From assembly GCF_020080045.1 (NCBI RefSeq), contig NZ_CP083451.1, positions 3,273,001-3,337,000 of the forward strand: 64,000 nt of DNA. Reading direction: 5' to 3'. The notes below the pieces were generated by a model that saw only the letters and a program-made list of their open reading frames with translations, had not been told where the DNA came from and did not search any database. Shown here piece by piece: positions 13,759 through 57,151 of the stretch (positions within the stretch are counted from its first letter, which is position 1; every line of letters starts with the position of its first letter). The DNA comes from Comamonas odontotermitis. Its GTDB lineage: Bacteria > Pseudomonadota > Gammaproteobacteria > Burkholderiales > Burkholderiaceae_C. The position numbers and the translations under genes are program-made.

Positions 13759-13769
13759 TGAGTCGTACC

Positions 13770-15449: not shown

Positions 15450-15874
15450 TTCACCGCCCTAAGGCCAAACTTGCCAGTAGCCGCCTTTTCAGCAGCCTCT
15501 TGCCTTGCGTCCTTTTTACCGCCCTCGCCCTTTTTGGCGAACTCGAATGGCATCAGGGCTTTGGCAGCATCGATACGCAGCCTGGGATCTAGGGCGACAT
15601 CATTCATTGCCGCCATCAGGAACACGCGCGGGTCCTTATGCGCCATTGCCTGGTTGAGGTCAAACGAAGGGCGATCATCCGGAGGGGCCTCGCCCGCGTC
15701 CTTGGCCTTCTTGTGCTTTTTGATGTACTCAGCCACCTCAGCATCTTTAACAAGCCTTGAGCCTGCCGCTGATGCGGTTGCTGAGCTGTAACCTGCGGCG
15801 ATTGCCGCGTCTTTATTCGACTTGCCAGCCAAAACGGCATTGGCGAACAGTCGCTTCTTGCCTGTTAAAGCCAT
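15446..15874 (-). CDS. Terminase small subunit
   Basis: A protein of 142 residues starting MALTGKKRLFANAVLAGKSNKDAAIAAGYS. This is the helix-turn-helix of the Terminase_2 type small subunit, which binds the packaging site. I prefer ATG 15874 over 15889 because a GGAGGA ribosome site fits it. A Pro/Asp-rich linker separates the N-terminal domain from the C-terminal helix. It is encoded directly before TerL. Confidence 0.88.
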   Translation of the reverse strand: MALTGKKRLFANAVLAGKSNKDAAIAAGYSSATASAAGSRLVKDAEVAEYIKKHKKAKDAGEAPPDDRPSFDLNQAMAHKDPRVFLMAAMNDVALDPRLRIDAAKALMPFEFAKKGEGGKKDARQEAAEKAATGKFGLRAVK

Positions 15875-15899
15875 TAACAAATCCTCCAATAGGGGAAAT

Positions 15900-15990
15900 T
15901 TTCCGCGCGTGCGGAACAGGTCGGTTTCCAGGGAGGCCGCCCCTCAGGACTTATCACACCCCCGGGGGGTATCGATGCCGCTGCGGCTTG
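15900..15990. other. Non-coding GC-rich gap between HNH nuclease and TerS; candidate cos region
   Basis: The stretch between the HNH stop and TerS start has no convincing gene. It contains a near-palindrome CACCCCCGGGGGG at about 15957-15969, and a second inverted element CCGCGCGTGCGG at 15902-15913. Cohesive-end phages with an HNH protein often carry cos close to the HNH-TerS junction. The identification as cos is only positional. Confidence 0.25.
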
Positions 15991-16030
15991 CCAGATCGCG
16001 CCAGGAGCATCGATCCTCTTGCACCTAGGG

Positions 16031-16351
16031 TCAACGCCCTGCGCTCCCTCTCGCCCTTGCCTGGGCTTCTCGCCTGGTCTTGTCCGCATGGCATGGGGTC
16101 TTGTGCAATGGCTGCAGGTTCGATTCATCGTTGCTGCCGCCCTGCTCCCGTGGGACGATGTGATCTATCTCATCTCGCCAGGGCAACCAGAGCAGCCCGC
16201 AGGCCGCGCACATGTAGTTGTACCGCTTGGCTACCCGCTCCCGCTTCGCCATCCATGAGCTGCCTCGCTCCATCTCTGTAGCGCCTGCCTTGGTGTCCAG
16301 CACAGGAACAGTGGAGCCCAACATGGGCAGGGTTGTCTTGAGCGTCTTCAT
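16031..16351 (-). CDS. HNH endonuclease associated with terminase
   Basis: A protein of 106 residues. The HNH motif is clear: CAACG, then DEIDHIVPREQGGSNDESNLQPLHKTPCHADKT, with paired cysteines and the DH...N...H catalytic core. In HK97-like phages a small HNH protein encoded beside the terminase is needed for specific cos cleavage and packaging. The start overlaps the stop of an upstream 57-residue zinc-finger-like gene by four bases. Confidence 0.92.
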   Translation of the reverse strand: MKTLKTTLPMLGSTVPVLDTKAGATEMERGSSWMAKRERVAKRYNYMCAACGLLWLPWRDEIDHIVPREQGGSNDESNLQPLHKTPCHADKTRREAQARARGSAGR

Positions 16352-16521
16352 TCAAGATACTCCTGCAAGAGGTCACTGACTGCTGGCCGATTGCAGTATT
16401 CGCAATGCTCAGGGCCAGGTTTGAGCAGTGCACCACATCCTTTGCAGCGCTCTCCCTCTGGGTCGATGATGATGTGGCGAGGATGCGCATCACACAGAAA
16501 CTGATAGCTTAATGTCTGCAT
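16348..16521 (-). CDS. Small zinc-finger-like phage protein (57 aa)
   Basis: A short open frame, MQTLSYQFLCDAHPRHIIID followed by CKGCG and CEYC, ending QEYLE. Two CxxC pairs separated by about 12 residues suggest a zinc ribbon. Its stop overlaps the HNH start by four bases (ATGA), which indicates translational coupling. It may assist terminase or HNH function, but this is inferred from position only. Confidence 0.7.
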   Translation of the reverse strand: MQTLSYQFLCDAHPRHIIIDPEGERCKGCGALLKPGPEHCEYCNRPAVSDLLQEYLE

Positions 16522-16750
16522 GGCTCTCTCCTATCGGGTGCAGGGGCTAGGCTCCAAGTGTGTAGGTCGCGTGTGCGGAGAGCCTGCCCTGCGGAAAAGA
16601 AACCGTCTTGGAATACGATGGGAGCTCTCACACAACCATCAATTTGACTAGGAAACGGCCTACATGCCCGTACTCCACACTCCTACAACAAGAACTTTTA
16701 GCATGTAGAAAATTACGGCTGTTTGGTGAAAAACTTGGGAGTAAACAACT
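16522..16750. other. Intergenic region without a clear gene
   Basis: About 230 bases between the divergent 57-aa gene and the plus-strand gene at 16751. I see a GGCTCTC/GAGAGCC inverted pair (about 16521-16583). I see no gene. It likely holds the promoter of the plus-strand cargo gene, and possibly packaging-site sequences. Confidence 0.35.
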
Positions 16751-17005
16751 GTGGAGATAGTCGATATTCACAGCATCAGTCCAGCCAACAAATGCTTGTT
16801 TGCCGACGGCACGAGCGTGGCTTGCTTTGCCTTGGTCTCATTGAGTGATCGAAGCACTGGAGGCAAGCATGTTGAGAAGCGAATCATTCCAATCAGGGAA
16901 GAAGACATTGGCTCCAATCTTTTGGGCCGGGATGTCCGCGACTTTGAAATAGCCATTGCCTTTATAGACACCTTCACTCAGCAAGGAAACTTTCATACGC
17001 ACTAA
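16751..17005 (+). CDS. Hypothetical cargo protein (84 aa) in reverse orientation to late genes
   Basis: An 84-residue frame starting with GTG (MEIVDIHSISPANKCLFADG) and ending GNFHTH. It is on the strand opposite to the late operon and its base composition is clearly more AT-rich than the neighbouring structural genes, which suggests a moron-type insertion. GGGAG lies about ten bases upstream. No family recognised and no membrane segment. The protein looks foldable (alternating hydrophobic strands), so I think it is real. Confidence 0.5.
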   Translation: MEIVDIHSISPANKCLFADGTSVACFALVSLSDRSTGGKHVEKRIIPIREEDIGSNLLGRDVRDFEIAIAFIDTFTQQGNFHTH

Positions 17006-17014
17006 GAGGGAGAG

Positions 17015-17293
17015 ATGTTAGACAAAAAGCTGATCAGTGGCCTAGTTCTCGCTGCAGCAACAAGCCACACTTTAAGTACATCAGTTAGGGATCAATTTTT
17101 CAGTGATCAGAGCTATGCGGCAACGTTAACTTGCACTGCCTCAAATTTACAAGCACTCCCTTGGTGCCAACTCACTTCGATGTCGTTTCTTCAGATTCAG
17201 GAACCGCAAACTGGAAACGAAAAAGCCCGCACTAGGCAAGGCTCGGTGTTGGTGGGCCCGGAAGGAATCGAACCCTCATCCTCCGGTTCGTAG
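17015..17293 (+). CDS. Doubtful small ORF running into an antisense tRNA
   Basis: ATG 17015 has a good GAGGGAGAG ribosome site and follows the 84-aa gene by nine bases. The N terminus (MLDKKLISGLVLAAATSHTL) is hydrophobic. The last 15 residues are the antisense translation of the tRNA-Arg gene (GPEGIEPSSS), so the present 92-aa end is probably artificial. It may be a gene truncated by recombination at the tRNA. Confidence 0.3.
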   Translation: MLDKKLISGLVLAAATSHTLSTSVRDQFFSDQSYAATLTCTASNLQALPWCQLTSMSFLQIQEPQTGNEKARTRQGSVLVGPEGIEPSSSGS

Positions 17294-17324
17294 CCGGAAG
17301 TCCTGTCCATTGAACGACAGGCCC
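17250..17324 (-). tRNA. tRNA-Arg(ACG), prophage-borne
   Basis: Full cloverleaf on the minus strand: acceptor GGGCCTG/CGGGCCC, anticodon loop CTACGAA with anticodon ACG, T arm with GGTTCGATTCC, and an encoded CCA. It lies four bases after the tRNA-Ser gene in the same transcript direction, between the early operon end and the packaging genes. Confidence 0.93.
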
Positions 17325-17328
17325 AAAT

Positions 17329-17419
17329 TGGCGGAAGCACAAGGAATCGAACCCTCACCCGCTCTTCACGGATGGCGACGGTTTTCAAGACCGTTTCCCG
17401 ACCTTCGGGGCATGCTTCC
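17329..17419 (-). tRNA. tRNA-Ser(UGA), prophage-borne
   Basis: Full cloverleaf with a long variable arm, as in class II tRNAs. Acceptor GGAAGCA pairs with TGCTTCC, the anticodon loop is CTTGAAA with anticodon TGA, there is a GGTTCGATTCC T arm and an encoded CCA. It forms a tandem with tRNA-Arg(ACG) in the late-gene orientation. Confidence 0.92.
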
Positions 17420-17565
17420 TAAAACGATGAGACAGAAACAAAAAAGCGCCCCCTGTCGGAGCGCTCTATCACCGAGCTTTGCAGACACCGCCGCCTCCGT
17501 CCAGGGATGCTGCGATTCTTATGCGTCTGCGCTCAATCGATAGGCTGAACGATACCATATAAATC

Positions 17566-17976
17566 TCATTTGTGCCAGCCCTTGCGAATTATTTGTGCAG
17601 CGACTTGAACAACTGCCTCAGATCGTGAGCTGCACACATCGGAATGCAGTCGCTGCCCTCCTCTGCCAGCTTCACACCGGTAGCTGCAGCGATCCCTCTG
17701 GAAAACCGTCACCACCCACCCCGCAAGGCTCAGTTTGCGCTCTACCTGGGCGGCATTGATCGGGTTGTGGGCTGGCCGAATCAGTTTGCTGCGCCACAGA
17801 TCGCTTACTTCAGCATTGGTCGGGCGACCTTCGAGCTCTTCTTGCGCTTGGCACTTCTGGCACTTGGTGAACAACCTCAGGAAGCCGCGAATGACCTTGA
17901 AATCCTCATGCAAGCATTGGCCCAACAAGTGCTGATTCACCAACATCTCATCTGCTGTAGGGTAGGTACGCTTCAT
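17566..17976 (-). CDS. Hypothetical phage protein with a CxxC pair (136 aa)
   Basis: Starts MKRTYPTADEMLVNQHLLGQ; the ATG at 17976 overlaps or abuts the stop of the upstream antiterminator-like gene and has an AAGGGGGG ribosome site. It contains FTKCQKCQAQ and three further cysteines downstream. It is the last gene of the early operon before the tRNAs. No family recognised. Confidence 0.6.
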   Translation of the reverse strand: MKRTYPTADEMLVNQHLLGQCLHEDFKVIRGFLRLFTKCQKCQAQEELEGRPTNAEVSDLWRSKLIRPAHNPINAAQVERKLSLAGWVVTVFQRDRCSYRCEAGRGGQRLHSDVCSSRSEAVVQVAAQIIRKGWHK

Positions 17977-17977
17977 C

Positions 17978-18403
17978 TCACCCCCCCTTGGACAGCAGCA
18001 TGTTGCGGCTGTCGGTCAGCAAACGGCCCAGCTCAACCAGACTGGTTCCAATGATCTGGCATGCCTTCTTTGGTGCCATCCATGGCTTCACATATACCCA
18101 GTTGAGAACGCCACGGTGCGGTAGTGGAAGATGGATTACCGCAGCATGAATCTTGGCAGCGTCCAGGTGATCAATCCTCTCCTGCGTCTCGGCCCGGGCT
18201 TGAGCATGATCCCTGGGCTCCGGCGGCACCATGCGAAACATGGGCGATATTTGGCGCGCTACCGACCCGTGACACCAGCGGCCCCAGTTCACCAGCCGTG
18301 CATCAATCTCTCTGTGCGCCTCTGGCACAGTGTTGAAGTCCACATAGCCGCGACCGCTGCGGCGCGCTTGTGTGGAAAGTGCTGCTGTCTCTGCAAAGTT
18401 CAT
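17978..18403 (-). CDS. Candidate late-gene antiterminator (Q-like)
   Basis: A 141-residue protein starting MNFAETAALSTQARRSGRGYVDF. The start at 18403 has a GGAGG ribosome site; the longer frame is not supported. The segment EIDARLVNWGRWCHG and the C-terminal helix-turn-helix-like end (VLNWVYVKPWMAPKKACQIIGTSLVELGRLLTDSRNML) resemble phage Q or DUF1133-type late regulators with a sigma-region-4-like fold. Position at the end of the early operon, upstream of the late genes, fits a Q role. Two terminator hairpins inside the late operon give such a factor a purpose. Family membership is inferred by eye. Confidence 0.5.
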   Translation of the reverse strand: MNFAETAALSTQARRSGRGYVDFNTVPEAHREIDARLVNWGRWCHGSVARQISPMFRMVPPEPRDHAQARAETQERIDHLDAAKIHAAVIHLPLPHRGVLNWVYVKPWMAPKKACQIIGTSLVELGRLLTDSRNMLLSKGG

Positions 18404-18419
18404 TGGTCCTCCGTTTTGG

Positions 18420-18758
18420 CTATTGGGGTGTTGCGCTTGAGGCCTGCTGGTTCGCCTGCACGCGCTGGGTGAGATCCGCCATGAAGGCGTCGCAAAGGTC
18501 ACCAACTCTGGTTGGCTCCCACTCTTCGATGGGCGGGGTTTTCCTCCCATACTCAGCCAAGGTGCGCCGCAAGAGGCTGCTGGCCAGCCTGCATTCGTCA
18601 TCGCCGCCGACAAAGACCGGTATGAAATCTGACGCCCGGCCTTCGACATAGCATTTGCGGTTCTTCTCCAGCATCGTGCGCAGCGGCTCTACGTGGAAGC
18701 AGCGTTGCGATCCGCTCCAGAGCAGTGCATAGGTGGGTTCAAATTGATGATTGGTCAT
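18420..18758 (-). CDS. Hypothetical early phage protein (112 aa)
   Basis: Starts MTNHQFEPTYALLWSGSQRCFHVEPLRTMLEKNRKCY. The start overlaps the primase-helicase stop by four bases, so it is cotranslated. The sequence reads as a small mixed alpha/beta protein (DFIPVFVGGDDECRLASSLLRRTLAEYG). No family recognised. It belongs to the replication operon by position. Confidence 0.7.
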   Translation of the reverse strand: MTNHQFEPTYALLWSGSQRCFHVEPLRTMLEKNRKCYVEGRASDFIPVFVGGDDECRLASSLLRRTLAEYGRKTPPIEEWEPTRVGDLCDAFMADLTQRVQANQQASSATPQ

Positions 18759-45603: not shown

Positions 45604-46311
45604 ATGACTGCCACGCCCCCGCCCACCATCGAAATCAAAGGCACGCTTCCCTTCAACAAGCTGGCTGATTACAAGCTGATCGCGTTCGACATGGATTCGA
45701 CCCTGATCACCATCGAGTGCATCGACGAGATTGCCGACATCACCGGCAAGAAGGCCGAGGTGGCAGCCATCACCGAGGCGGCGATGCGCGGCGAGATTAC
45801 CGATTACAAGGAAAGCCTGCGCCAGCGCATGGCTCTCCTCAAGGGCGTGCCGATTGCCGACATCGAGCGCGTGCTGCAGGAGCGCCTGCAGTTGACCCCA
45901 GGCGCCAAGACCTTGATCGACGCTGCCCATGCAGCAGGCCTCAAGGTGCTGCTGGTATCGGGCGGCTTCACCTTCTTTGCAGACCATGTCAAAGCCCAGT
46001 TGGGCATTGATTTTGTGCGCGCCAACATCTTTGAAGTGCAGGATGGCAAGCTCACCGGAGGCCTGGTGGAGCAAAGCTGGGGCGACATCTGCGACGGCGA
46101 GGAAAAGCGCCGCACGGTGCTGGGCCTGGCGTCGCTGATGGGCATTGCGCCTGCCCAGGTGATTGCCGTGGGCGATGGCAGCAACGACCTGCCGATGATG
46201 CGCGAGGTGGGCCTGTCCGTGGCCTACCATGCCAAGCCCCGCGTACGCGCCGAGGCCAAGGTGGCCATCAATCAGGGCGGTCTGGATCAATTGCTGGAAG
46301 TGTTTCCATAA
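45604..46311 (+). CDS. serB: Phosphoserine phosphatase
   Basis: A 235-residue HAD hydrolase from ATG 45604 (MTATPPPTIEIKGTLPFNK). Motif I is AFDMDSTLITIECIDEIAD (nucleophile Asp), motif II is VSGGFTFFADHVKAQLG, the Lys region is GEEKRRTV and motif III is IAVGDGSNDLPMMREVGLSVAYHAKP. It performs the last step of serine synthesis. Its 3' end overlaps the convergent sensor kinase gene by 44 bases. Confidence 0.95.
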   Translation: MTATPPPTIEIKGTLPFNKLADYKLIAFDMDSTLITIECIDEIADITGKKAEVAAITEAAMRGEITDYKESLRQRMALLKGVPIADIERVLQERLQLTPGAKTLIDAAHAAGLKVLLVSGGFTFFADHVKAQLGIDFVRANIFEVQDGKLTGGLVEQSWGDICDGEEKRRTVLGLASLMGIAPAQVIAVGDGSNDLPMMREVGLSVAYHAKPRVRAEAKVAINQGGLDQLLEVFP

Positions 46312-48292
46312 ACTCCTCCATGTCCAGCCGCAGGCCCAGCTCGCGGCTGAGCAGGTCATGCAGTTGGCGTGGGTCGATGGGCTTGTGCATCAGGGTGGCG
46401 CCCATGGTATTGGCCAGTTGCAACCGCCCTGGCGCGGTGTCGCCCGTCAGGATGATGTAGTGCGGCAGGTGCGTCTGCCATGGCGGGTAATGGGCAATCG
46501 CTTCGCGCATCGCCATCACCACCATGCTGCCGTCTTCGGTCTTTGACAGCCGCAAGTCGGTCAGCACCACATCGAACGGGCGGCTTGCACTGTCCTGCGC
46601 ACGCCGCAGCAGGCGCTGCACCTGGCCAACGGTTGCCGCACTCGCCACCTCGCACTGCCACTGCTCCAGCATGCTTGACAGGCCAATGCGCACCAAAGGC
46701 TCGTCGTCCACTACCAGCACCCTCATGCCGGCAAGCGGCTCATACCCCGCATTGTCGGCGTCTTCCCACAGGCCCGACACCAGGCCATAGCCACCCGCAG
46801 GCGCGGCCTCTGCCATCAACGCAACGCGGAACACCGAGCCCTTGCCCAGCCGCGATGACAGCGACACCTGCACGTTCAGGATGTCTGCCAGCTCCCGCAC
46901 GATGGCCAGCCCCAGGCCAAGCCCTTTGCCGCCGGGTCCATGGTCCTCACCGACCTGTCGGAACTCCTGAAAGATCAGCTCATGGTGGGTAGGCGCAATT
47001 CCCAGGCCTGTATCCCACACTTCAATGCAGCGCTGCAGGCCGCGCTTGCGCACTGCCAGCAGCACGCCACCCTGGTCGGTATAGCGCAGCGCGTTGGAGA
47101 CCAGATTGCGCAACAGCATGAAAAGCAGCGACTGGTCGGTGTAGACCCAGTCCTCGCTGTCCCGCACCCGGAAAAGCAGGCCCGCCGCATCGGCCTGTGG
47201 GCCAAACTCCTTCTCCAGGCGGCGCAGAATGCCGGCAATGGCCACCGGCTGGAGCTTGGCGTCCAGCACGCCGGCCTCGATGCGCGAGTAGTCCATCAGC
47301 GTATCGAGCATCTCGCGGCTTGCGGCACTGGCCGCGCGCGCGTGCTCCAGCACGCTCGCCTGCGGCGGCGTCAGGCCCGAGCCGCGCAGGGTTTCCAGAA
47401 ACAGGTTGAGTGCCTGCACCGGTTGGCGCAGGTCATGGCTCACACCGGCAAGGACACGGTTCTTGTCGTGCACCGCATTCTGCGCATGACGGGCATGGTC
47501 GCTCAGGTGCTTTTTGTACGACGCAATGGCATGCGCCAGCTGATCAATCTCATCGCCATGGAGGTCGGGCGCGGTGTGGATACCGCCGAATTCGTCATCG
47601 CGCACTTCGCGTTGCAGACTGACAATCCGCCGCGATACCGAGGCATCCATATAGATGCCGGCAGCGATCACAATCAGAATCAACGCAGTCACCAGCCAGT
47701 TGAGGCGCTCCTGCTGGTTGGCCACGTCGCGCGAGAGCTGGCGGCCTCTCTCATTGAGCTCGCGGCGCAGGTCTGCGGCCACATGGCTGGCCAGCAAGGA
47801 GAGCTTGGTGGCAAGAGCCTGGCTGCCCGCCACCAGCGCGTCGGTCTGCATCGCTGCTTCGCCATTGACCGAGGGCTCGAACACTGCGCCGCTCAACTGG
47901 CCCACCTTCACCCGAAGCGCTTCGCGCGCGGTGACCAGTTGCGGGCCCAGATCGCGCAGATCGCCACTCGCCACCAGCTCGGTCACCAGCTTGTCCAGCC
48001 ACAGCATGCGGTCGGTCAGCTCCATCATGTTCAGGCGCCGTTCGCTCTGGCTGTTGCTTTGCCCCACCAGGCGCGCGTAGCTTGCCACCATCTCGCTTTG
48101 CTGCATCAACCGGGTGCTGGCAACCAGTTGCTCCATTTCGACGTTTGCCAGGCGCCGCACTTCCTGGTCAGTCCGCTTGAGCCCCCGGATCGCAAATACA
48201 AAGACCAGGGCAATGCCCAGTGCGACTACCGTCAGGATGATCAGCAGCCTGGCAGTGACCGAAGGCCTGGCGAGCTTCAAGGAGCGGGACAT
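46268..48292 (-). CDS. Hybrid sensor histidine kinase with C-terminal receiver
   Basis: A 674-residue protein from ATG 48292 (MSRSLKLARPSVTARLL). TM1 is near residues 16-37 and TM2 near 199-219, bounding a large helical periplasmic region. The HisKA domain has GVSHDLRQPVQALNLFLETL, the HATPase domain RNLVSNALRYTDQGG, DTGLGI and GKGLGLGLAIV. The C-terminal receiver has VLVVDDEP, phospho-Asp in VVLTDLRLS, ILTGDT and MHKPI. It lies in a cluster with a solute-binding protein and a response regulator, and is likely the sensor that controls the divergent adhesin operon. Confidence 0.9.
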   Translation of the reverse strand: MSRSLKLARPSVTARLLIILTVVALGIALVFVFAIRGLKRTDQEVRRLANVEMEQLVASTRLMQQSEMVASYARLVGQSNSQSERRLNMMELTDRMLWLDKLVTELVASGDLRDLGPQLVTAREALRVKVGQLSGAVFEPSVNGEAAMQTDALVAGSQALATKLSLLASHVAADLRRELNERGRQLSRDVANQQERLNWLVTALILIVIAAGIYMDASVSRRIVSLQREVRDDEFGGIHTAPDLHGDEIDQLAHAIASYKKHLSDHARHAQNAVHDKNRVLAGVSHDLRQPVQALNLFLETLRGSGLTPPQASVLEHARAASAASREMLDTLMDYSRIEAGVLDAKLQPVAIAGILRRLEKEFGPQADAAGLLFRVRDSEDWVYTDQSLLFMLLRNLVSNALRYTDQGGVLLAVRKRGLQRCIEVWDTGLGIAPTHHELIFQEFRQVGEDHGPGGKGLGLGLAIVRELADILNVQVSLSSRLGKGSVFRVALMAEAAPAGGYGLVSGLWEDADNAGYEPLAGMRVLVVDDEPLVRIGLSSMLEQWQCEVASAATVGQVQRLLRRAQDSASRPFDVVLTDLRLSKTEDGSMVVMAMREAIAHYPPWQTHLPHYIILTGDTAPGRLQLANTMGATLMHKPIDPRQLHDLLSRELGLRLDMEEFMETLPAIDPDRPD

Positions 48293-48524
48293 GCGCCTAC
48301 GCCCATGAACACCAGACAGGAAAGACACCCTTGCGCGCGGCGGCCCGAAAGCCCCGCTTGGCAACGCCCGCCTTCATAACCTGGCTGTAGAGATGGAAAA
48401 ACATGGTGATTCGTGCTTCTGTTCATTGGATTGCATTGAAACCCGTCACACCCCGATACCCGTGAACACCAATCGCTCCATCGCTCTGTTATTGAAAGGG
48501 CTTGCAGAGACTGCATGGCTTCAC
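48293..48524. other. Gap between sensor kinase and solute-binding protein genes
   Basis: About 230 bases without a supported gene. It could contain a separate promoter for the kinase gene. No clear terminator or repeat is seen. Confidence 0.35.
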
Positions 48525-50075
48525 TCAGTTCTGCCAACGCAGGTTCTCTATCGCAAACACGGGGACCGGGCAGTGCTCCCACATACCTGTCAGCTCGCGA
48601 CGGATGAAATTTCGCTCGGGCCGCAGCTGGATGAAGAGATTGACCGCATCCTCCGTGATCTGGCGCTGGGCCTGCCCCAACTGTTCGTTGCGTTCGGCGT
48701 CGCTGCGCGCGGCGCGGACCTTCTCCCAGATTTTCTTGAAGGCGCGGTTGTCATAGTTGAAGTAGTAGCCGTTGCGGGCGTAGATGTTCAGGTCCATGGG
48801 CTCGACGTGCATGATGACGGTCATGTCGTAGTCCTTCTGCTTGAATACCTTGTCCAGCCAGGTCGGCCAGTCCATGGTCACGATTTCGACCTGAATACCG
48901 ATGGCCTCCATCTGCCGGGCCACGATCAGGCTGCCATAGCGCCCATAGTCCGTGGGCGGCAAGGCCAGCTTCAACACCGTACCCGGCGCCACCCCGGCTT
49001 CACGCAGCAATGCCTTGGCGCGTTCCACGTCATAGGGGTAGCGGTTCACCAGGTTCACGTACGCAGGGTGGAATGGCGAGAAATGCGAACCGATGGGCAC
49101 AGCCTGGATCAGCGGCCCATAGATGCCATGGTATTCACGGCGGTCGATGGCATGGCTCAGCGCCCGGCGTACACGCACGTCATTGAGCGGCGCACGGGCA
49201 TTGTTCAGCGCCACGATCTGCTTGCCCTCGACGCCGCGCGAAGTCATCACATAGTCGGACCGTCCCGCGAAGGCGCCAGTCAGCCGCGTTACGCTGCTCA
49301 GCACATCAATGCGGCCTTCGGCAAGCATGCTCTCCGTCTCGAACGAGGTGGTCATGAAAAGGAACTGCGCCTCACGTATCTGCGGTTTCTGGGAGTTCCA
49401 CCAGGAGTCATTGCGCACCAGGCTCACCGAATGGCCGCGCTTCCACGGCTGCACCCTGTACGGCCCCGTGCCCACCGGTCGTACGGCATTGGTGTCGGCC
49501 GTATCGGGATGCACCATGACGGCGCCCGGCAGCGCCAGCGCATAAGGCAACAGACTGTCAGGTGCGGAAAGGTGGATGCGCAGCATCTGTTCATCCACTG
49601 CCTCGACCGACGCGACCTTGTCGAACCATTCGAGGTAGGCATTCATGCCCGTCATCTTCATCATGCGCTGCAGGCTGAAGACTGCCGTATCTGCATTGAA
49701 TGGTTTGCCGTCGTGGTAGAGCACCTGCTTGCGCAGCTCGAAGTCGACCGTCTTTCCATCCTTGCTGACCTGCCACTGCGTTGCCAGCCGAGGCCGCACC
49801 TGACCTTCCCCGTCGATGAAGGTCAGGCCTTCATAGACGTTGGCATAGGTGATCTCACTGGCAGTCCCTGCGCTGGTCGTGGTGATGTCCAGCGATGGAG
49901 GCTCCAGTTGGATGCCGATGCGCAGGCTGTCCGAGCCAGCCCAGGCGGGCAGCAGACCCAGCCAGCACACCAGTCCCAACAACCATGACCGCCATTGCCG
50001 CAGCAGGCTGACAAGCTGCTGGCCCAACCCGCCTGCCGGGTGTCTGCGCTCAACTCCAGTGCCTTGCTCTGCCAT
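48525..50075 (-). CDS. Family-5 extracellular solute-binding protein (DppA-like), orphan
   Basis: A 516-residue protein. A signal peptide ends near residue 46 (LLGLVCWLGLLPAWAG). The mature part has typical SBP_bac_5 segments: LRIGIQLEPPSLDITTTSAGTASEITYANVYEGLTFID, RPRLATQWQVSKDGKTVDFELRKQVLYHDGKPF, VRPVGTGPYRV, LNDVRVRRALSHAIDRREY. Such proteins bind peptides, nickel or similar ligands in the periplasm. No permease or ATPase genes accompany it here; instead it sits between a response regulator and a sensor kinase gene. I infer that it may act as a ligand sensor for the kinase. Confidence 0.9.
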   Translation of the reverse strand: MAEQGTGVERRHPAGGLGQQLVSLLRQWRSWLLGLVCWLGLLPAWAGSDSLRIGIQLEPPSLDITTTSAGTASEITYANVYEGLTFIDGEGQVRPRLATQWQVSKDGKTVDFELRKQVLYHDGKPFNADTAVFSLQRMMKMTGMNAYLEWFDKVASVEAVDEQMLRIHLSAPDSLLPYALALPGAVMVHPDTADTNAVRPVGTGPYRVQPWKRGHSVSLVRNDSWWNSQKPQIREAQFLFMTTSFETESMLAEGRIDVLSSVTRLTGAFAGRSDYVMTSRGVEGKQIVALNNARAPLNDVRVRRALSHAIDRREYHGIYGPLIQAVPIGSHFSPFHPAYVNLVNRYPYDVERAKALLREAGVAPGTVLKLALPPTDYGRYGSLIVARQMEAIGIQVEIVTMDWPTWLDKVFKQKDYDMTVIMHVEPMDLNIYARNGYYFNYDNRAFKKIWEKVRAARSDAERNEQLGQAQRQITEDAVNLFIQLRPERNFIRRELTGMWEHCPVPVFAIENLRWQN

Positions 50076-50132
50076 ACTGCATTCCTCCTGCCCACCGCCC
50101 GCGCCATCTGCTGCATGGGCTGGCGCTTGTGT

Positions 50133-50789
50133 CTACTTGATCGGCATGGCCGGCAGAACGCCACTGCGCTGCGCGTTCAGCACGGCCTGGGTACGGGTTT
50201 CAGCGCCAAAATGCTTCAACACCGATGCCACCTGGTTGCGGATGGTGTGCTCGCTCAGGCCAAACTGCCTGGCAATTGCCTTGTTGCTATAACCCTTGGC
50301 CAGCATCTTGAGCACTTCGTACTGGCGCACCGGTAGTTCGCTCTCTCCTTGCGCCAGCGGTGGCACGGTACAGAGGTTCACGGGTTTGCTGCGGCTGACT
50401 GGCTCCATTCCCGGGCTCCTGCGCAACCAGTGCTGAACCTGGGCGCATATCGCATCGGGTTGCATGGATTTGGACATGAAGCCTGACGCCCCCTGGCGCA
50501 CTGCGTCCTTCATCAACTCCGGATGGTCATGGCCGGAGAGCATCACCACGAAGGCACGCGGCCAGCGCTTGCGCACATGGTCAATGCCGGCCAGTCCATC
50601 GCAGCCGGGCATGCTGATGTCCAGCAACACCAGATCTGCCCAACACTGCAGCGCAACCGCCTCCTCCACGGAACTCGCCTCATGAATATGGGCCTGCACC
50701 ATGTCGCTGGTCGACAGCATCATTCGCAGCCCCTTGCGGAACATGGGGTGGTCATCAACCAGCACAACCGATGGCAATGGAAGCGTCAT
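50133..50789 (-). CDS. NarL/FixJ-family response regulator
   Basis: A 218-residue protein from ATG 50789 with a GAGGGG ribosome site. The receiver (residues about 8-125) has VVLVDDHPMFRKGL, phospho-Asp in DLVLLDISMPGCDGL, MLSGHD and SKSMQPD. The LuxR-type helix-turn-helix (residues about 150-205) is LPVRQYEVLKMLAKGYSNKAIARQFGLSEHTIRNQVASVLKHFGAETRTQAV. It is divergent from the adhesin operon across a 376-base AT-rich gap and is its most likely direct regulator, comparable in type to CsgD or FixJ family activators. Confidence 0.92.
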   Translation of the reverse strand: MTLPLPSVVLVDDHPMFRKGLRMMLSTSDMVQAHIHEASSVEEAVALQCWADLVLLDISMPGCDGLAGIDHVRKRWPRAFVVMLSGHDHPELMKDAVRQGASGFMSKSMQPDAICAQVQHWLRRSPGMEPVSRSKPVNLCTVPPLAQGESELPVRQYEVLKMLAKGYSNKAIARQFGLSEHTIRNQVASVLKHFGAETRTQAVLNAQRSGVLPAMPIK

Positions 50790-51165
50790 GTTCACCCCTC
50801 GTCTTTCTCTTTTGATAATTTTTGGTGCAAACGCATACATGTCGTTACCTTACATCCAAAACAATCCGTAACCAATAGTTCATTTGTACTAATTCCGATA
50901 CAGCAATGACTTTGCCATCAATTTGCCCAACTATGAAAATTAACAAGCAATTGATAAATATATAAAAAACAATCAAATTGAACCATCGACCCGGCGCGGC
51001 TTAATCGATTTTTCCCGCCGTAGCCTAGTACATCTGAACTATTTACGATTGTTCACCAAAAAATGACGATGCAGCCATGCGAAGGCATTGCTGCGATGCA
51101 GTCAGTGCACTCGCACTTCCATCCGCCTGGCCTGCAGCAGGCGGATCCACCAATGCGAGGACGAC
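50790..51165. promoter_or_regulatory. AT-rich divergent promoter region
   Basis: About 376 bases, markedly richer in A/T than the flanking genes, between the response regulator and the adhesin operon. An inverted GTTAC (50844-50848)/GTAAC (50868-50872) pair and several A/T tracts (50930-50985) are visible. It likely holds promoters for both directions and regulator binding sites. No gene is supported here. Confidence 0.55.
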
Positions 51166-51741
51166 ATGAAAAAAACCACCACCTATCTGGCCGTTGGCTT
51201 GCTGACGGCGACCGCCCAGGTCCATGCACAGGGCTGGCTCGGCGAATCCGTGCCATGGCAGTTCCAGACCAGTGCCGACCGTGCCAACCGTGCCTTGGTC
51301 AACGATCTGGTAGAGAAGAAAAAAGGAGGCTACTACGACGCCTTCAAAAGCACCTACATCACCAACATCGAGCGGCAGGTCAACTGCAATTTCCAGCCCA
51401 CCTCGGCTGGCAACAGCAGCGCTGCCGACCAGGCCAACAACGTGGCATCGCCAGTGACCAATGCCTCGTCGGGCACCAGTGCCAGCAGCACCGGCAGCTC
51501 CAGCGAGAGCCGCGACAACCTCGGCCGCGGCGGGGTCTCCAACAACAACCAGAGCAACACGGGGCCCATCACCAGCGGCGTGCAGGGCAGCCCCTCGACC
51601 ACTACCACGGCGCCCATCAACAGCGATCGCTCCAATGGCCAGCAGGACATGCAGGTCGCGCAGAACAACAGCGGCAACCAGACCACGAACGTGAACGGCA
51701 GCTCCGCCTGCCAGTTCAGCTCCAGCGGTGCCATCAACTAA
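51166..51741 (+). CDS. Secreted HfaA-like minor fibre component
   Basis: A 191-residue protein from ATG 51166, GAGGA ribosome site. Signal peptide MKKTTTYLAVGLLTATAQVHA, then a short globular part (WQFQTSADRANRALVNDLVEKKKGGYYDAFK). From residue about 80 on it is low complexity, rich in Asn, Ser, Thr and Gly (DNLGRGGVSNNNQSNTGPIT, QVAQNNSGNQTTNVNGSS), ending with ACQFSSSGAIN. It is the first gene of a three-gene operon with a CsgG/HfaB-like channel and a large repeat protein. Order and composition resemble HfaA of the Caulobacter holdfast anchor. Similarity is by pattern, not by alignment. Confidence 0.6.
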   Translation: MKKTTTYLAVGLLTATAQVHAQGWLGESVPWQFQTSADRANRALVNDLVEKKKGGYYDAFKSTYITNIERQVNCNFQPTSAGNSSAADQANNVASPVTNASSGTSASSTGSSSESRDNLGRGGVSNNNQSNTGPITSGVQGSPSTTTTAPINSDRSNGQQDMQVAQNNSGNQTTNVNGSSACQFSSSGAIN

Positions 51742-51758
51742 GCGCGGCGGAGGACACC

Positions 51759-53132
51759 ATGCTCACACTCACCAAGCACACAGGTCCCGCACTGCAGGCG
51801 GGGCGCAGCAAAGTCCTGCCCCTGTCCACCCTGGCGTCCGCCTTGCTGTTGGGCGGCTGCGCGCTGCCCACCTACCAGCAGGTGCAGATGGCCGAAGGGG
51901 AAGCCGCTGTCATGCAAGGCCCCGGACCGCGCCACAACGGCACTCCGCTCGACGGCGTGCTGGCCTGCATGTCGCACCGCATCGTCGCGCAGCAGGGCGG
52001 AAGGGCCCCCCTGTCCGTGGCCGTCGGCGACATCAAGGACTACACCGGCAAGTACTCGCAGGGCGATGGCAATGTCGTCACCCAGGGCGGCGCACTGATG
52101 GTCTACTCGGCGCTGGGCAAGCTCGGCGGCGCGATTGACGTGCGGGAGCGCTTCGACACCCGCGTGGCCGAGCTGGAGCTGGCCTACACCGACCGGCGCC
52201 AGCTGGGAGACGGCAACTCGCATGCCCTTGCTGACGACAAGGGCCAGCGCGCCGTGCCCTGGCTTCCGTACTACGGTGGCTCCATCCTCAAGTCCGACTA
52301 CTACATCATCGGCGGCCTGACCGAGGTGAACTACAACATCCAGTCCGGCGGCATCGAGGCCCAGGTCAACCAGATCGGTCCACGGTACCGGGTCTTCACC
52401 ATGAATGTGGGTGCGGACCTGCGCATTGTCGAGACCCGAACCCTGCGTGTGGTGCGTGCCGTCAGCCTGCAAAAGCAGATCGTGGGCCGGGAAATCGGTG
52501 CCGGCATCTTCCGCTTCTTCGGCAGCAACCTGTTCGACATCAACGCCGGCAGCAAGGATCTGGAGCCCGTGCAGTTGGGCGTGCGCACCACGCTGGAGCA
52601 AGGCGTGATCGAGCTCATCAGCACCATCACCCAGACACCGGCAGCACCCTGCATGGAAAAACCAGGTACCGCCGAGCAGGTGAAGGCAACCGCCGCAGCA
52701 CCGGAAGAACCTCCTCCCCCCTCTACCCCGGCCCAGCCCACTGCAGTTGCTCCGCAAGCCGCAGTGGCCACCGAGCCGCTGCAGGAAAGCACAGCCGCTG
52801 CACTCACTGCACTGGATGTGGTTTTCGAGGAGAACTCCAACCGCATTGCACAGCAATCGGCTACTGCGGCTGAAACCGTCTCCACGCGCCTGCGTGCCGG
52901 CCAGGGCGTGCGCATCGCCTTGCTCGCCCGCGAGCGCGAAGCCGACCAGAACCCCACCCGCCGCGACGAATTGACCGACGCGCGCATTCAGGCCTTTCGC
53001 GGCCTGCTGGCACAGCATGGCGTACCGCCCGATCAGATACGTGTCACCTGGCGGCCATCCCCAGGCGACAACACCGTGCATCGCTACGGCGCCGGCTACC
53101 GGCTGCTGACAAAGCTGCAGGTAACACCCTGA
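51759..53132 (+). CDS. CsgG/HfaB-like outer-membrane lipoprotein with OmpA-like C-terminal domain
   Basis: A 457-residue protein from ATG 51759 with a GGAGGA ribosome site. The lipobox LLLGGC ends at Cys34. The CsgG-like core (residues about 55-300) contains LSVAVGDIKDYTGKYSQGDGNVVTQGGALMVYSALGKLGG, DRRQLGD, SDYYIIGGLTEVNYNIQSGG, LRIVETRTLRVVRAVSLQKQIVG and VRTTLEQGVIELI. CsgG and HfaB form outer-membrane export pores for curli and holdfast anchor subunits. After a Pro/Ala linker (about 305-350) a C-terminal segment (LDVVFEENSNRIAQQS, RRDELTDARIQAFRGLLAQHGVPPDQIRV) resembles an OmpA-type peptidoglycan-binding end. Confidence 0.82.
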   Translation: MLTLTKHTGPALQAGRSKVLPLSTLASALLLGGCALPTYQQVQMAEGEAAVMQGPGPRHNGTPLDGVLACMSHRIVAQQGGRAPLSVAVGDIKDYTGKYSQGDGNVVTQGGALMVYSALGKLGGAIDVRERFDTRVAELELAYTDRRQLGDGNSHALADDKGQRAVPWLPYYGGSILKSDYYIIGGLTEVNYNIQSGGIEAQVNQIGPRYRVFTMNVGADLRIVETRTLRVVRAVSLQKQIVGREIGAGIFRFFGSNLFDINAGSKDLEPVQLGVRTTLEQGVIELISTITQTPAAPCMEKPGTAEQVKATAAAPEEPPPPSTPAQPTAVAPQAAVATEPLQESTAAALTALDVVFEENSNRIAQQSATAAETVSTRLRAGQGVRIALLAREREADQNPTRRDELTDARIQAFRGLLAQHGVPPDQIRVTWRPSPGDNTVHRYGAGYRLLTKLQVTP

Positions 53133-53152
53133 GACTTCACCGCATGTGGACT

Positions 53153-53215
53153 GGTATCAAAAACATAGCTGATAGCGCCCAGGTCAAAAGCGCTTGAGGC
53201 CAATTTCATCCCTTT
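53153..53215. repeat. Short intergenic repeat of Comamonadaceae type
   Basis: The stretch containing AAACATAGCTGATAGCGC, AAAAGCGCTTGAGGCC and TTTCATCCC looks like a dispersed intergenic repeat that I recall as frequent in Acidovorax and Comamonas genomes (TAGCTGnTAGCGCTT...AGCGCTnGAGGCC). A related element with AAAAGCGCTTGC arms follows the murA homologue (60055-60091). Confidence 0.5.
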
Positions 53216-53263
53216 TTCAAGAGTTCCTCCCCCGCCACGCTCCATTTTTCCAAGGAGAGCACC

Positions 53264-56200
53264 ATGTCACGTCACACCACATCCCCATCACGCCGCCTTC
53301 CACGGCACCATCTGGCGCCCCTGGCCGCAGCCGTGGCCCTGCTGAGTGCTGCCCTCGGAGCGCAGGCACAGATCATCAGTGCTGGCCCGCCCTCGGTCAT
53401 CGGGTCCACGCCATCACAAAGCAGCAGTGGCCCCATCACTGCAAATGGCGGTGCAAACCTGGTTCTCGGTACTCTGGACCCGGTAACCACCAACAACAGC
53501 AACAACAGCATTGGCTCCAGCGCTCACGGCAATGAGCACCAGTTGGCCCCTGGAGCCACAGAAGCGCTCTCCATCACCAGCCAGGCCGGAGCGGTGAACC
53601 CCGTTGTAGCCGCAACCCAGTTGGTCACAGGCGCGGTCACTGCCAATACCACCAACTCAACCATCGGCATCGACACCACCGGCGCTGTGAATGCGCTGGC
53701 CAATGCGGGCAGCCGCATCGGCGCCACGGCCAATGTCAGCGGCAACGAGGTGTCCTCTCAGGCCACAGGCAATTCCGACGTCGCAACCATGGCCATCAGC
53801 GCCCCAACCCTGGTGCTGGCCACGCCTGCGATTGCCGGCTCCGCACAAACAGCGGCAAGCAACATATCGGCCAACACTGCGGTGCGACTGCTGGGCGCCA
53901 GCATTCAGCCCCGCAGCGGCAGCTGGACGGATCTGACGATCAACGTCTCCGGCAACGCGGCAGACACCAACGCCACGGCCAACCAATCCAAAGCCGGCAT
54001 CAGCGTCACCGCACCGGCAGATCTGACCATCTCCGCCAGCGGCGCGCTCATCAGCGGCGCGACCCAGCAGCAGGCCGGCACCACCAGAGCCATCAGCACC
54101 GTAGACACGCTCGGCACCCTGATCCAGGGCACCCTCATCTCGCCCAGCCCCTCGGACAGCAGTTTCAACACCAGCGGCAACCAGGCCACGGCATCGGCAC
54201 AGGGCAACCAGCAAAGCAACCAGATTGCGGTAGCTGCAGGCTCCGTCCAGCTTGATGGCACACTGCCTGCGTTTGCCAACACGATCCAGACAGCCAGCGG
54301 CAGCACCCAGGCGCAGAGCGTCGTAGGGACGCTGGGCGTCAGCAACGGGTCTACCAATTCGTCGGGCAACCAATACATCGTCAACGGCAATACCGCAGGC
54401 GCCAGCGCCAGCGGCAATGCAGGAAGCACTGGTGTTTCCGTTCTGGCAGACAGCAACATCTCAGGTCCTGCGGCCATGGGACCCGAAGCCATTGTGACGG
54501 TGGGTAACACCCAGACCTTTGCGGGCACGGGGGTCAGCGCCCTCACCAAGATCACACTGCTGGGCTCCTCCATGGCTCCATCGCCTCTTGGCAACTCCAG
54601 CGGCGACACCCAGACCATTTCAGGGAACAAGGTCTACGCCTCTGCCCAGGGCTCGGATGCCACCAATACCGCCACCCTGCAAGCCAGCGGCGGCATCGAC
54701 AATACCGGCGCTGCAATGACCAACCTGCAAAACCACGTAAGTGGCAATGTCAGCGCCACCACCGAGGTGACGGCACTGGGCAGCCGGGCACTCTTCTCCC
54801 AGGATGGAAGCCAGACGGTGACCGGCAACAGCCTGCAGGCCACGGCGCAAAGCACCCGGGCAAGCAATGCAGTCTCCATTACAGGCGGTGCGCTCGACTT
54901 CACCCCTGCAGCCATTGTCAATACCCAGACGCATACAGCGGGCAACACCAGCGCCACCGTGGATGTGGCGCAGTTGGGCAGCGTCCGCACCACGCTGGGC
55001 CCCTTGCCCATCAACACCTTCACCCGGGACCAGCAAACGGTGAGCGGCAACACCCTCACCGCCGTCGCCAGCAGCCAGACCGCCAGCAACCAGGCAGCGA
55101 TCAGCGGCAGCAGCCTGGACAACGCGGGCGCGCTCATCGCCAACACGCAGACCCATGTCTCGGGCAATGTCAGCGCCACGGTGGCCAACCTCAACCAGGT
55201 CAGCCCTGCCCCAGCACCAAGCCCCATCATGACAATGGTGGGCGTTGGCGCACTGTCCTTGTCTGGCGGGCAAAGCGTCGTATCGGGCAACAACGCCAGC
55301 GCCGATGCCAACATCAACCTCGCGGCCAACAGTGCTGCACTGAAAAGTGACACCAGCATGAATGGCGCTGGCAGCGGTGCCATCCTGGGCAACGTGCAGG
55401 ATGCGCAAGGCGGTAATGCAAGCTCGCTGGTACAGGTCGATTTCGGGGTGTCGGGCCTGCGCTCGGGCGGGCATGAGGCCATCGTCTCGGACAACAGCGC
55501 CAGAGCCAGCGCCAGCCAGAACCAGGCCATCAATGCCATCAGCCTGAAGGCCGGGACCAATCTGGTGGCGCCCACCCTTCAGTTGGGCAGTGACCAGAAG
55601 GCCGCTGGCAATACCAGCGCCACGGTCACCACCAACCTGCTGACCGGCACGGGCGCGGGCAACAGTGGAGCCACGACCGTCAGCGACAACCAGGCAAGCA
55701 CCAGCGCACGCGCCAACGTTGCCAACAACGTACTCGCTCTTGACTCGGTCACCGCCAGCGGCGGCCTTGCAGGCGTGCTGTCGAACGTGCAGGCCAATGG
55801 TGGCCAGGTCAATGCCAACACCACCATGACAATCGGAGTGCAGGGCGCCCTTGACACGGGAGCCGTCACCGTCTCCGGCAACGCGGTCGATGCGCTGGGA
55901 GCAGGCAATGCCGCGCTCAACAGCATCAACGCTGCGGCAGGCACCGCCTTCAACGGCAACAGTGCGAATCTGTTGAACACGCAGACCAACAACGGCGCCA
56001 TCACCGCCACTGCCGCGCTGAACGCTCCCGCAGGCCAGCCCATGGTGAGCGGCGGTGCCAGTGGCTCCAATCTGCTGAACAACACGGTCACCGCCACGGC
56101 CTATGGCAACAATGCAGTCAACCAGATCAACATTGTCGCCTTGCCCGGCCAATTGGCAGCCAGCACCAACCTGACCTCGACGCAGATCAACACCGGTGCG

Positions 56201-56332
56201 GTGACCGCCACTGCCGGTGGAAATATCAGCAGCGGCGGTGTGTCGACTGGCAACAATATCTCCGGCAACCGCATCAGCGCCGTGGCCGTGGGCAACAACT
56301 CGGTGTCGTCCATGACACTGGGCGTGAAATAA
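53264..56332 (+). CDS. Large secreted repeat adhesin, HfaD-like
   Basis: A 1022-residue protein with an AAGGAGA ribosome site. An N-terminal signal peptide ends near AALGAQA. The rest is nearly free of cysteine and poor in aromatic residues, and very rich in Ala, Asn, Ser, Thr and Gly. A motif (V/I/T)-S-(G/D)-N-x3-A-x-A, often followed by N-x-A-x-N-x3-I and by NTQTHVSGNVSATV, recurs about a dozen times at 65-100 residue intervals; examples start at about nt 53735, 53945, 54170, 54625, 54825, 55040, 55280, 55490, 55680, 55870 and 56265. This fits a beta-helical or amyloid-like surface fibre. It ends SVSSMTLGVK. It is presumably exported by the CsgG/HfaB-like channel encoded just upstream. Confidence 0.78.
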   Translation: MSRHTTSPSRRLPRHHLAPLAAAVALLSAALGAQAQIISAGPPSVIGSTPSQSSSGPITANGGANLVLGTLDPVTTNNSNNSIGSSAHGNEHQLAPGATEALSITSQAGAVNPVVAATQLVTGAVTANTTNSTIGIDTTGAVNALANAGSRIGATANVSGNEVSSQATGNSDVATMAISAPTLVLATPAIAGSAQTAASNISANTAVRLLGASIQPRSGSWTDLTINVSGNAADTNATANQSKAGISVTAPADLTISASGALISGATQQQAGTTRAISTVDTLGTLIQGTLISPSPSDSSFNTSGNQATASAQGNQQSNQIAVAAGSVQLDGTLPAFANTIQTASGSTQAQSVVGTLGVSNGSTNSSGNQYIVNGNTAGASASGNAGSTGVSVLADSNISGPAAMGPEAIVTVGNTQTFAGTGVSALTKITLLGSSMAPSPLGNSSGDTQTISGNKVYASAQGSDATNTATLQASGGIDNTGAAMTNLQNHVSGNVSATTEVTALGSRALFSQDGSQTVTGNSLQATAQSTRASNAVSITGGALDFTPAAIVNTQTHTAGNTSATVDVAQLGSVRTTLGPLPINTFTRDQQTVSGNTLTAVASSQTASNQAAISGSSLDNAGALIANTQTHVSGNVSATVANLNQVSPAPAPSPIMTMVGVGALSLSGGQSVVSGNNASADANINLAANSAALKSDTSMNGAGSGAILGNVQDAQGGNASSLVQVDFGVSGLRSGGHEAIVSDNSARASASQNQAINAISLKAGTNLVAPTLQLGSDQKAAGNTSATVTTNLLTGTGAGNSGATTVSDNQASTSARANVANNVLALDSVTASGGLAGVLSNVQANGGQVNANTTMTIGVQGALDTGAVTVSGNAVDALGAGNAALNSINAAAGTAFNGNSANLLNTQTNNGAITATAALNAPAGQPMVSGGASGSNLLNNTVTATAYGNNAVNQINIVALPGQLAASTNLTSTQINTGAVTATAGGNISSGGVSTGNNISGNRISAVAVGNNSVSSMTLGVK

Positions 56333-56353
56333 GCGGCACCCTCACTGCCGCCC

Positions 56354-56388
56354 GGGCGGACGCATCGTCCCTCGCCGTCCGCCCTTTT
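56354..56388 (+). terminator. Terminator of the adhesin operon
   Basis: GGGCGGACG (56354-56362) pairs with CGTCCGCCC (56376-56384) followed by TTTT. It lies 22 bases after the stop of the repeat adhesin. Confidence 0.85.
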
Positions 56389-56605
56389 GCCCACCACCGG
56401 TGGGCTCTTTTGCCTCTGCCTTGCTCAGGGCAGCCCGTGATTTTGCACGGCGTCCGAAGCAGCGCAGAAGCACCATGCCCTACAATCAGCTTCAGCTTGC
56501 GCTACCCAGAACGAATAACCAAAGCGCAGCCTCCTGGCCACTGTTTCTGCTTGCAACGCGCAGCTTGATATCCGCAGTGGTGGCCCTCATCTCTCCAGGG
56601 TCGGC

Positions 56606-57151
56606 ATGACACTGCATTCGCAGGCTGTCACCTGCCTTTGGCTGTTTTTCTTGAATGGGACACTTGTGAATTCTTCGTTTCGTACATCCGCCTCCGTGAT
56701 CGCTTTGACCGTTGCTGGCCTGGTGCTGCCAGGGCTGGCCCATGCCAAGCGCATGGGTGGCGGTTTCAAATCGCGCCCTGCAGCTACGCAGAAGGCCGCG
56801 CCTGCGCCTGCAGCCACGCCCGCTGCCAATACAGCAACCAAAGCAGCCCCCGCCCCTGCTGCACAAACACCCGCCGCTACCAATTCTGCAGCAGCAGCGA
56901 CGCCAGCCGCTCCTGCCGCTGCCGCCCGCCCCAGCATGATGGGCACCATGGGCGCCGCAGCCGTGGGCGCTGTTGCAGGCACCATGGCAGGCAGTGCCAT
57001 GGCCGGAGCCATGGGTGGCGACAAGGCCAAGGAAGAGGCCGCCGCCAAGCAAGCCGAAGCCAAGAAGGCAGAAGCCGAGGCAGCCGACTTGCAGAAGAAG
57101 GCCGACGAAGCCAAGGCCAAGGCAGAAGCCGCACGCGCTGCTGCCAAGTAA
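56606..57151 (+). CDS. Ala-rich exported protein of unknown function
   Basis: The open frame has 181 codons. The real start may be GTG 56666 (VNSSFRTSASVIALTVAGLVLPGLAHA), which gives a normal signal peptide cleaved before KRMGGGFKSR. An Ala/Pro-rich linker follows, then a Gly/Ala/Met segment (MMGTMGAAAVGAVAGTMAGSAMAGAMGG) and a charged Ala/Lys/Glu helix. The KRMGGGxxS start of the mature part resembles N termini of Tim44-like exported proteins of Burkholderiales, but no Tim44 domain follows. Function is unknown. Confidence 0.6.
   Translation: MTLHSQAVTCLWLFFLNGTLVNSSFRTSASVIALTVAGLVLPGLAHAKRMGGGFKSRPAATQKAAPAPAATPAANTATKAAPAPAAQTPAATNSAAAATPAAPAAAARPSMMGTMGAAAVGAVAGTMAGSAMAGAMGGDKAKEEAAAKQAEAKKAEAEAADLQKKADEAKAKAEAARAAAK

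Follow-up and report, generated by a model that had tools for sequence, protein, structure and literature searches.

A three-gene operon related to HfaABD, with a putative CsgG/HfaB-family export channel and a giant repeat protein, in Comamonas odontotermitis

The operon described here comprises three genes (A, B and D) in a 64,000-nucleotide stretch of the genome of Comamonas odontotermitis (assembly GCF_020080045.1, contig NZ_CP083451.1, positions 3,273,001 to 3,337,000 of the forward strand), hereafter called the window. It is considered, with a probability of about 0.6, to encode a dedicated system for export across the outer membrane, akin to HfaABD, in which the rod of the giant protein D would itself be the likely adhesin. 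In Caulobacter, HfaABD is known to anchor a polysaccharide; judged by sequence comparison, the present operon is a variant related to it and not HfaABD itself. The protein rod, and not a holdfast sugar, was taken as the likely adhesin because no Wza-like exporter was matched in the host genome (4.83 Mb, 3 contigs, completeness 100).

Operon organisation and conservation

The three genes are co-directional on the + strand, in the order A, B, D, and are followed by hairpins. This arrangement, including its agreement with the order hfaA-hfaB-hfaD, is the one proposed by a first-pass annotation made from the DNA letters. The features are as follows (positions in the window):

51166-51741, + strand: gene A, 191 amino acids (aa), ATG start, in HfaA-like position, homologous in 80/80 related loci
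51759-53132, + strand: gene B, 457 aa, lipoprotein of the CsgG/HfaB family (PF03783, NF037935), putative channel for export across the outer membrane
52017-52652, + strand: CsgG domain of B, residues 87-298 (PF03783)
52794-53129, + strand: OmpA/Pal-like domain of B, approximately residues 346-457, after a Pro/Ala-rich linker
53264-56332, + strand: gene D, 1022 aa, giant repeat protein, putative secreted surface fibre or adhesin
53414-56320, + strand: repeat array of D, 12-13 divergent copies of about 65 residues, approximately residues 51-1019 (repeat hidden Markov model, HMM)
56354-56415, + strand: probable operon terminator, hairpins 56354-56384 and 56389-56405, with T-rich tracts after each

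Gene A is separated from B by 17 bp and B from D by 131 bp, and plausible ribosome-binding sites were recognised by eye. Both inverted repeats 3' of D have perfect arms; the terminator call rests on these arms and on position, since the terminator scan was overall no better than shuffled sequence (7 versus a mean of 5.7, standard deviation 2.3). The sole promoter-like site was not above shuffle expectation.

Related loci were defined as the best 80 of 360 found, ranked against a query that includes the OmpA-like domain of B (loci and genomes are designated below by L and G numbers). A homologue of gene A lies directly 5' of B in all 80 loci (weakest phmmer E 2.2e-13, on a set of 81 sequences), and D-type repeats were detected 3' of B in 72 of them by a repeat search, so that A, B and D are not chance open reading frames. 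Seven of the eight loci without D repeats have only 0-722 bp left beyond B, and the repeats are present in 71 of the 72 loci having at least 1.5 kb beyond B. According to record titles, the hosts among the 80 loci include Comamonas, Variovorax, Alcaligenaceae, Novosphingobium, Sphingomonas, Mesorhizobium, Aureimonas, Caulobacteraceae metagenome-assembled genomes (MAGs) and Halomonas. Window B is 92% identical to the B of a C. odontotermitis record. Of 37 genomes from the genus, 6 (the own one among them) have an HfaB-type gene, and in 399 genomes sampled evenly across the order the gene A profile matches the own genome only. The operon is accessory within the genus.

The channel protein B

On sequence grounds B is a lipoprotein of the CsgG/HfaB family, as the first reading of the DNA had it. 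It scores 54.9 bits against PF03783 (CsgG; cut-off 20.8), its best NCBIfam match is HfaB (NF037935), and it aligns with solved CsgG structures at E 1.1e-8 as a single sequence and 2.5e-14 as a profile. A lipobox (LLLGGC, residues 29-34) was recognised by eye, and its Cys34 is nearly invariant in an alignment of B relatives.

The canonical HfaB set was defined as the 12 proteins, from 11 loci, that pass the HfaB cut-off; this cut-off is passed in 11 of 398 genomes, belonging to families f66, f79 and f98 (window B is in f1), and in a Caulobacter control genome. A tree was built from 67 rows (the window, 42 hand-chosen among the 80 loci, the 12 over-cut-off HfaB proteins, 7 intermediate proteins and 5 CsgG), with unsettled bootstrap values and flagged long branches. 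In it a very long branch (support 100/100) splits the HfaB-type rows from the CsgG rows. The 12 over-cut-off HfaB rows form a clade with L131 and L141 (97/83), which sits with L134-L136 on a branch of length 1.3 (99/99); window B falls outside.

The C-terminal tail of B is OmpA/Pal-like. A profile of the tail family matches solved Pal (1oap) at E 3.4e-5, and PF00691 is matched at E <= 0.01 by 12 of 15 excised tail domains and by 11 of 23 full-length family members. The tail is present in 76/80 loci, a frequency biased upward by the tail-bearing query used for ranking; two further loci are cut by contig ends and two Aureimonas loci lack it. None of the 12 over-cut-off HfaB rows has it.

It is very improbable that B is an envelope lipoprotein of the wider CsgG family without an export role, with A and D taking another path or staying periplasmic. 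Such a role would fit the three other PF03783 matches of the own genome, one of which (L138) has a C-terminus that by eye resembles a peptidoglycan-binding domain, and CsgG-family paralogues lacking curli cargo are common, passages of PMC3521004 describing many CsgG matches as likely paralogues. It is opposed by the linkage of B to both A and D-type repeats in 71/72 of the loci with sufficient sequence beyond B, and by the lack of any Pfam/NCBIfam secretion-class domain in window D and five other D proteins.

Three CsgG/HfaB-type loci are recorded here as separate observations. L137 (6513-8255, contig 2 of the own genome, G000) encodes a 230-aa CsgG-family lipoprotein beside two further small lipoproteins, as recognised by eye; the three form a CsgG trio that has no curli genes. 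L138 (4115-5206, contig 1 of G000) encodes the 363-aa CsgG-family protein mentioned above, a second possible fusion of CsgG to a wall-binding domain. L141 (6468-8713, G039, same order as the window) holds an HfaB-type protein of 297 bits, just below the cut-off, in the gene order D-like, A-like, B, with a 139-aa HfaA-like protein and a 195-aa protein with an HfaD-like AIGN end (by eye); this short Hfa-like operon does not belong to the families in which the over-cut-off HfaB proteins lie.

The repeat protein D

The repeat of D is approximately 65 residues long, with 12-13 copies in the window and 11-29 in other loci (repeat HMM), and the D proteins range from about 1000 to 2800 aa. Identity among 12 copies of window D averages 31% (range 17-48%), and the last copy bears the C-terminal signature QxNxGxVxA ... 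SGNxxxAxAxGN. The structure predicted by AlphaFold2 is all-beta (mean predicted local distance difference test score, pLDDT, 84.4; predicted template modelling score, pTM, 0.86) and has no Foldseek match in the PDB (best E 0.45, template modelling score 0.05).

Window D matches no Pfam/NCBIfam family, including any secretion class, at E <= 1, and the five other D proteins contain no Pfam/NCBIfam secretion-class domain (one weak unrelated match, E 0.046). The first-pass expectation that the large protein belongs neither to the autotransporters nor to another secretion class thus stood. D was also considered as a passenger of an autotransporter or two-partner secretion system, a candidate rejected for want of a translocator barrel or secretion domain in the same search.

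Some loci differ in the number of D genes or arrays. In L017 (Allopusillimonas, 10579-18513), one B is followed by two large D proteins (1282 and 1074 aa); between these lies a protein of 202 aa carrying a single D repeat. L067 likewise has a second D repeat array. In L034, L035 and L036 the arrays 3' of B are split over 2-3 open stretches, which are perhaps broken genes or repeat sequencing errors.

The model suggests that D is a self-contained fold of diverged repeats, to which a monomeric rod would be no worse a fit than a polymer. This bears on the curli-like interpretation, in which A and D would be amyloid subunits polymerising through B into many-subunit fibres. It shares with curli the CsgG-family channel, its subunits are rich in Asn/Gln/Ser/Gly with QxNxG-like motifs, and curli, too, include CsgA homologues of large size, having as many as 22 repeats, according to passages of PMC3521004. 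The curlin repeat (PF07012), CsgE (PF10627) and CsgF (PF10614) are, however, unmatched in the own genome, all being matched in an E. coli control, and the predicted 12-13-repeat fold of D suits a monomer no less than a polymer. A curli-like amyloid was therefore judged unlikely; of the curli-like character first ascribed to the operon, only the channel was recovered.

Relationship of A and D to the Hfa proteins

Protein A is rich in Asn/Ser/Gly/Thr and has a Sec signal peptide (by eye). In its conserved N-terminal segment, judged from the conserved columns of a 51-row alignment, D38 is an invariant Asp and Cys74 is also conserved; the part downstream is of low complexity, Asn/Ser/Gly-rich, with QxNxG-like motifs and a nearly invariant Cys182 near the C-terminus. 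The family as a whole conserves the signal peptide, a segment near GExxxWQFxTxxDxxNxAxxxDxIEKKKxGYY, two Cys and the QxN motifs. A matches no Pfam/NCBIfam family at E <= 1, the presence of an HfaA model in the NCBIfam library being unchecked.

For comparison, candidates for canonical HfaA (7) and HfaD (10) were chosen by position, composition and motif from loci with HfaB-type genes; both neighbours stand in A-B-D order at 7 of the 11 over-cut-off HfaB loci (composition script). Using hhalign, the D C-terminus was aligned with the HfaD C-terminus at a probability of 86% (pairwise E 4.6e-6); the score was 32.6, whereas 30 column shuffles gave no more than 10.6 and the reversed profile 14.2. A was aligned with HfaA at 83% (pairwise E 9.3e-6, score 40.8, against at most 18.7 in column shuffles and 13.4 reversed), part of the latter match being signal peptide. 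HfaA and the HfaD C-terminus were paired weakly, at 29%. The motif Q-x-N-x-[GA]-x-[VIL]-x-[AS], picked after inspection, is found in D, A, 10/10 HfaD and 7/7 HfaA candidates, with counts reached by 0-14 of 500 shuffles per sequence. A and D are likely to be distantly homologous to HfaA and HfaD, as far as these profiles go.

The HfaD candidates are 294-487 aa long, window D being 2-3.5 times longer, and the HfaD model NF037936, which matches in the Caulobacter control, has no match to D at E <= 1 or anywhere in the own genome. In the comparison with Hfa and Csg proteins suggested in the first-pass annotation, B matches both HfaB (below cut-off) and CsgG; D was matched neither by the HfaD model nor, as a structure, by any PDB entry in Foldseek, and A and D are linked to the Hfa proteins by pairwise profiles only. 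Likewise, the proposed HfaABD identity holds for the CsgG/HfaB family and the gene order, and fails for B as a canonical HfaB (below cut-off, outside the clade, with an OmpA tail) and for D as an HfaD.

Genome setting

PF02563, which we take to be the family of the Wza-like holdfast polysaccharide exporter HfsD, is matched in controls; it has no match in the own genome or in six further Comamonas genomes carrying this B (7/7 tested negative). The earlier remark that no holdfast polysaccharide genes are visible thus extends, for a Wza-like exporter, to the whole genome. The family is present in all five non-Comamonas hosts tested (G283, G301, G455, G456, G457). Because a Wza-like exporter was matched in none of the seven tested Comamonas genomes, a holdfast is probably not needed for the system to work in Comamonas.

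These results bear on whether the operon is an ordinary HfaABD holdfast anchor that moved into a betaproteobacterium, where it would anchor an exopolysaccharide made and exported by another route. The gene order and the HfaB family are shared, A and D resemble HfaA and HfaD at profile level, and the tested hosts of related operons outside Comamonas have Wza-like exporters. Nevertheless this origin is quite improbable: a recent transfer of hfaABD is unlikely because window B lies outside the over-cut-off HfaB clade and because two Caulobacteraceae MAGs (L072, L074) hold a B of window type. The negative PF02563 result in Comamonas and the length of D (about 1000-2800 aa, against 294-487 aa for HfaD candidates) also speak against it.

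A divergent cluster lies upstream of the operon on the - strand (46268-50840). It encodes a response regulator, a family-5 solute-binding protein and a hybrid histidine kinase resembling NahK/ErcS, and perhaps forms a ligand-sensing circuit for the operon. Its gene nearest to A is:

50133-50840, - strand: NarL/LuxR-type response regulator, divergent (PF00072 and PF00196), possible regulator of the operon

The cluster is kept in all five Comamonas loci L012-L016, and outside Comamonas only some loci, such as L051, show a weaker regulator match near A. Just past the terminator, a 181-aa Ala/Lys-rich protein (56606-57151, + strand) has a match in only 1/80 loci (L012, C. odontotermitis).

Evidence weighing against the proposed interpretation

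Several results weigh against an HfaABD-related export system with a D rod as adhesin. Concerning B, the match to NF037935 (224.3 bits, E 1.5e-66) does not reach the curated cut-off of 300 bits. The OmpA-type B rows are not found on one side of any tree branch (4 changes are needed), and the OmpA-type Halomonas row L080 joins the over-cut-off HfaB side (89/88). Window B alone reaches PF00691 at E 0.06, below cut-off, and the system also occurs without the OmpA tail, in the two Aureimonas loci and in two further genomes (L132, L133), which have a gene A of window type and a large window-type D (by eye) with a B lacking the tail. The Asp and Arg of the Pal peptidoglycan site are the residues that bind diaminopimelate. 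The Arg is invariant in 15/15 tail domains, but the Asp aligns to Thr; a conserved Asp stands one position away, and the window has Glu there. Peptidoglycan binding by the tail is doubtful because the site Asp is not at the aligned position.

Concerning the subunits, the D repeat model matches none of the 10 HfaD and 7 HfaA candidates, and the case for Hfa homologues in A and D consequently depends on comparing profiles of low-complexity sequences pair by pair. Other pairings were weak (D C-terminus with whole HfaD 39% and with HfaA 22%; A with the D C-terminus 18% and with the HfaD C-terminus 3%), and the simpler motif QxN-x-G/A is not above shuffles in window D (99/500 reach its count). The AlphaFold2 model of A is of low confidence (mean pLDDT 42.9), only the helix 36-53 reaching about 70-80. 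For D, it is to be noted that, according to PMC11795689, AlphaFold2 can be confidently wrong for beta-solenoids of perfect repeats.

Proposed mechanism and significance

In the proposed mechanism A and D would enter the periplasm via Sec, and the lipoprotein B would assemble, like CsgG, into an outer-membrane pore. By analogy with curli, A and D would be expected to leave unfolded through B, and D to fold outside as a long all-beta rod whose repeats are rich in Asn/Gln. The rod would remain attached to the cell, nucleated or held by A, its small partner. The OmpA-like tail of B may tie the pore to peptidoglycan and hold the large surface fibre under load. In Caulobacter, according to passages of PMC6707917, outer-membrane targeting and localisation of HfaA and HfaD need HfaB, HfaA multimers depend on HfaD, and the loss of any anchor protein results in holdfast shedding. 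For curli, passages of PMC3521004 describe a constant size of CsgG and a highly variable size of CsgA homologues, read as export of an unfolded chain.

A broader interpretation is put forward tentatively, as possible but short of probable: the operon may represent a new branch of CsgG-family secretion, in which a wall-tethered pore exports giant (about 1000-2800 aa) beta-solenoid rods, in which every ~65-residue repeat makes up a single, very wide coil bearing Asn/Gln ladders; the rods would serve scattered beta-, alpha- and gammaproteobacteria as a surface adhesin that needs no holdfast. If so, the fold of D would be new; its repeat is outside Pfam/NCBIfam coverage in the proteins tested. The CsgA of E. 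coli is far smaller than D. No description of an HfaABD variant with a giant repeat D was found in the literature searched. The occurrence of an HfaABD relative in hosts lacking a Wza-like match would point to protein-fibre export, and not to the anchoring of a sugar, as the older or more general job of HfaB, and the three genes offer a simple system for asking how large a protein may pass a CsgG-type pore and how the pore is fixed to the wall.

Comparison with known systems

The operon resembles HfaABD in its A-B-D order, in having B on the HfaB side of the CsgG family, in its two predicted secreted subunits rich in Asn/Ser/Gly/Thr/Ala with the motif described above, and in the profile-level resemblance between A and HfaA and between the C-termini of D and HfaD. 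It differs in the OmpA-like tail of B and the position of B outside the over-cut-off clade, in a D with a defined ~65-residue repeat, at least twice the length of HfaD and unmatched by its model, and in a host without a Wza-like exporter match. With curli it has the CsgG-type lipoprotein channel only in common: the host has no match to the curlin repeat, CsgE or CsgF, and CsgG is separated from the HfaB-type proteins by the very long branch (100/100). A family profile of the C-terminal domain of B matches Pal, but here this domain is fused to a putative secretion channel and retains the site Arg at its aligned position and not the Asp. Unlike autotransporter beta-helix passengers (e.g. Vag8, 7akv), D has neither a Foldseek match nor a translocator domain, and its aligned coils would comprise about 60-65 residues each, against 20-25 in those passengers.

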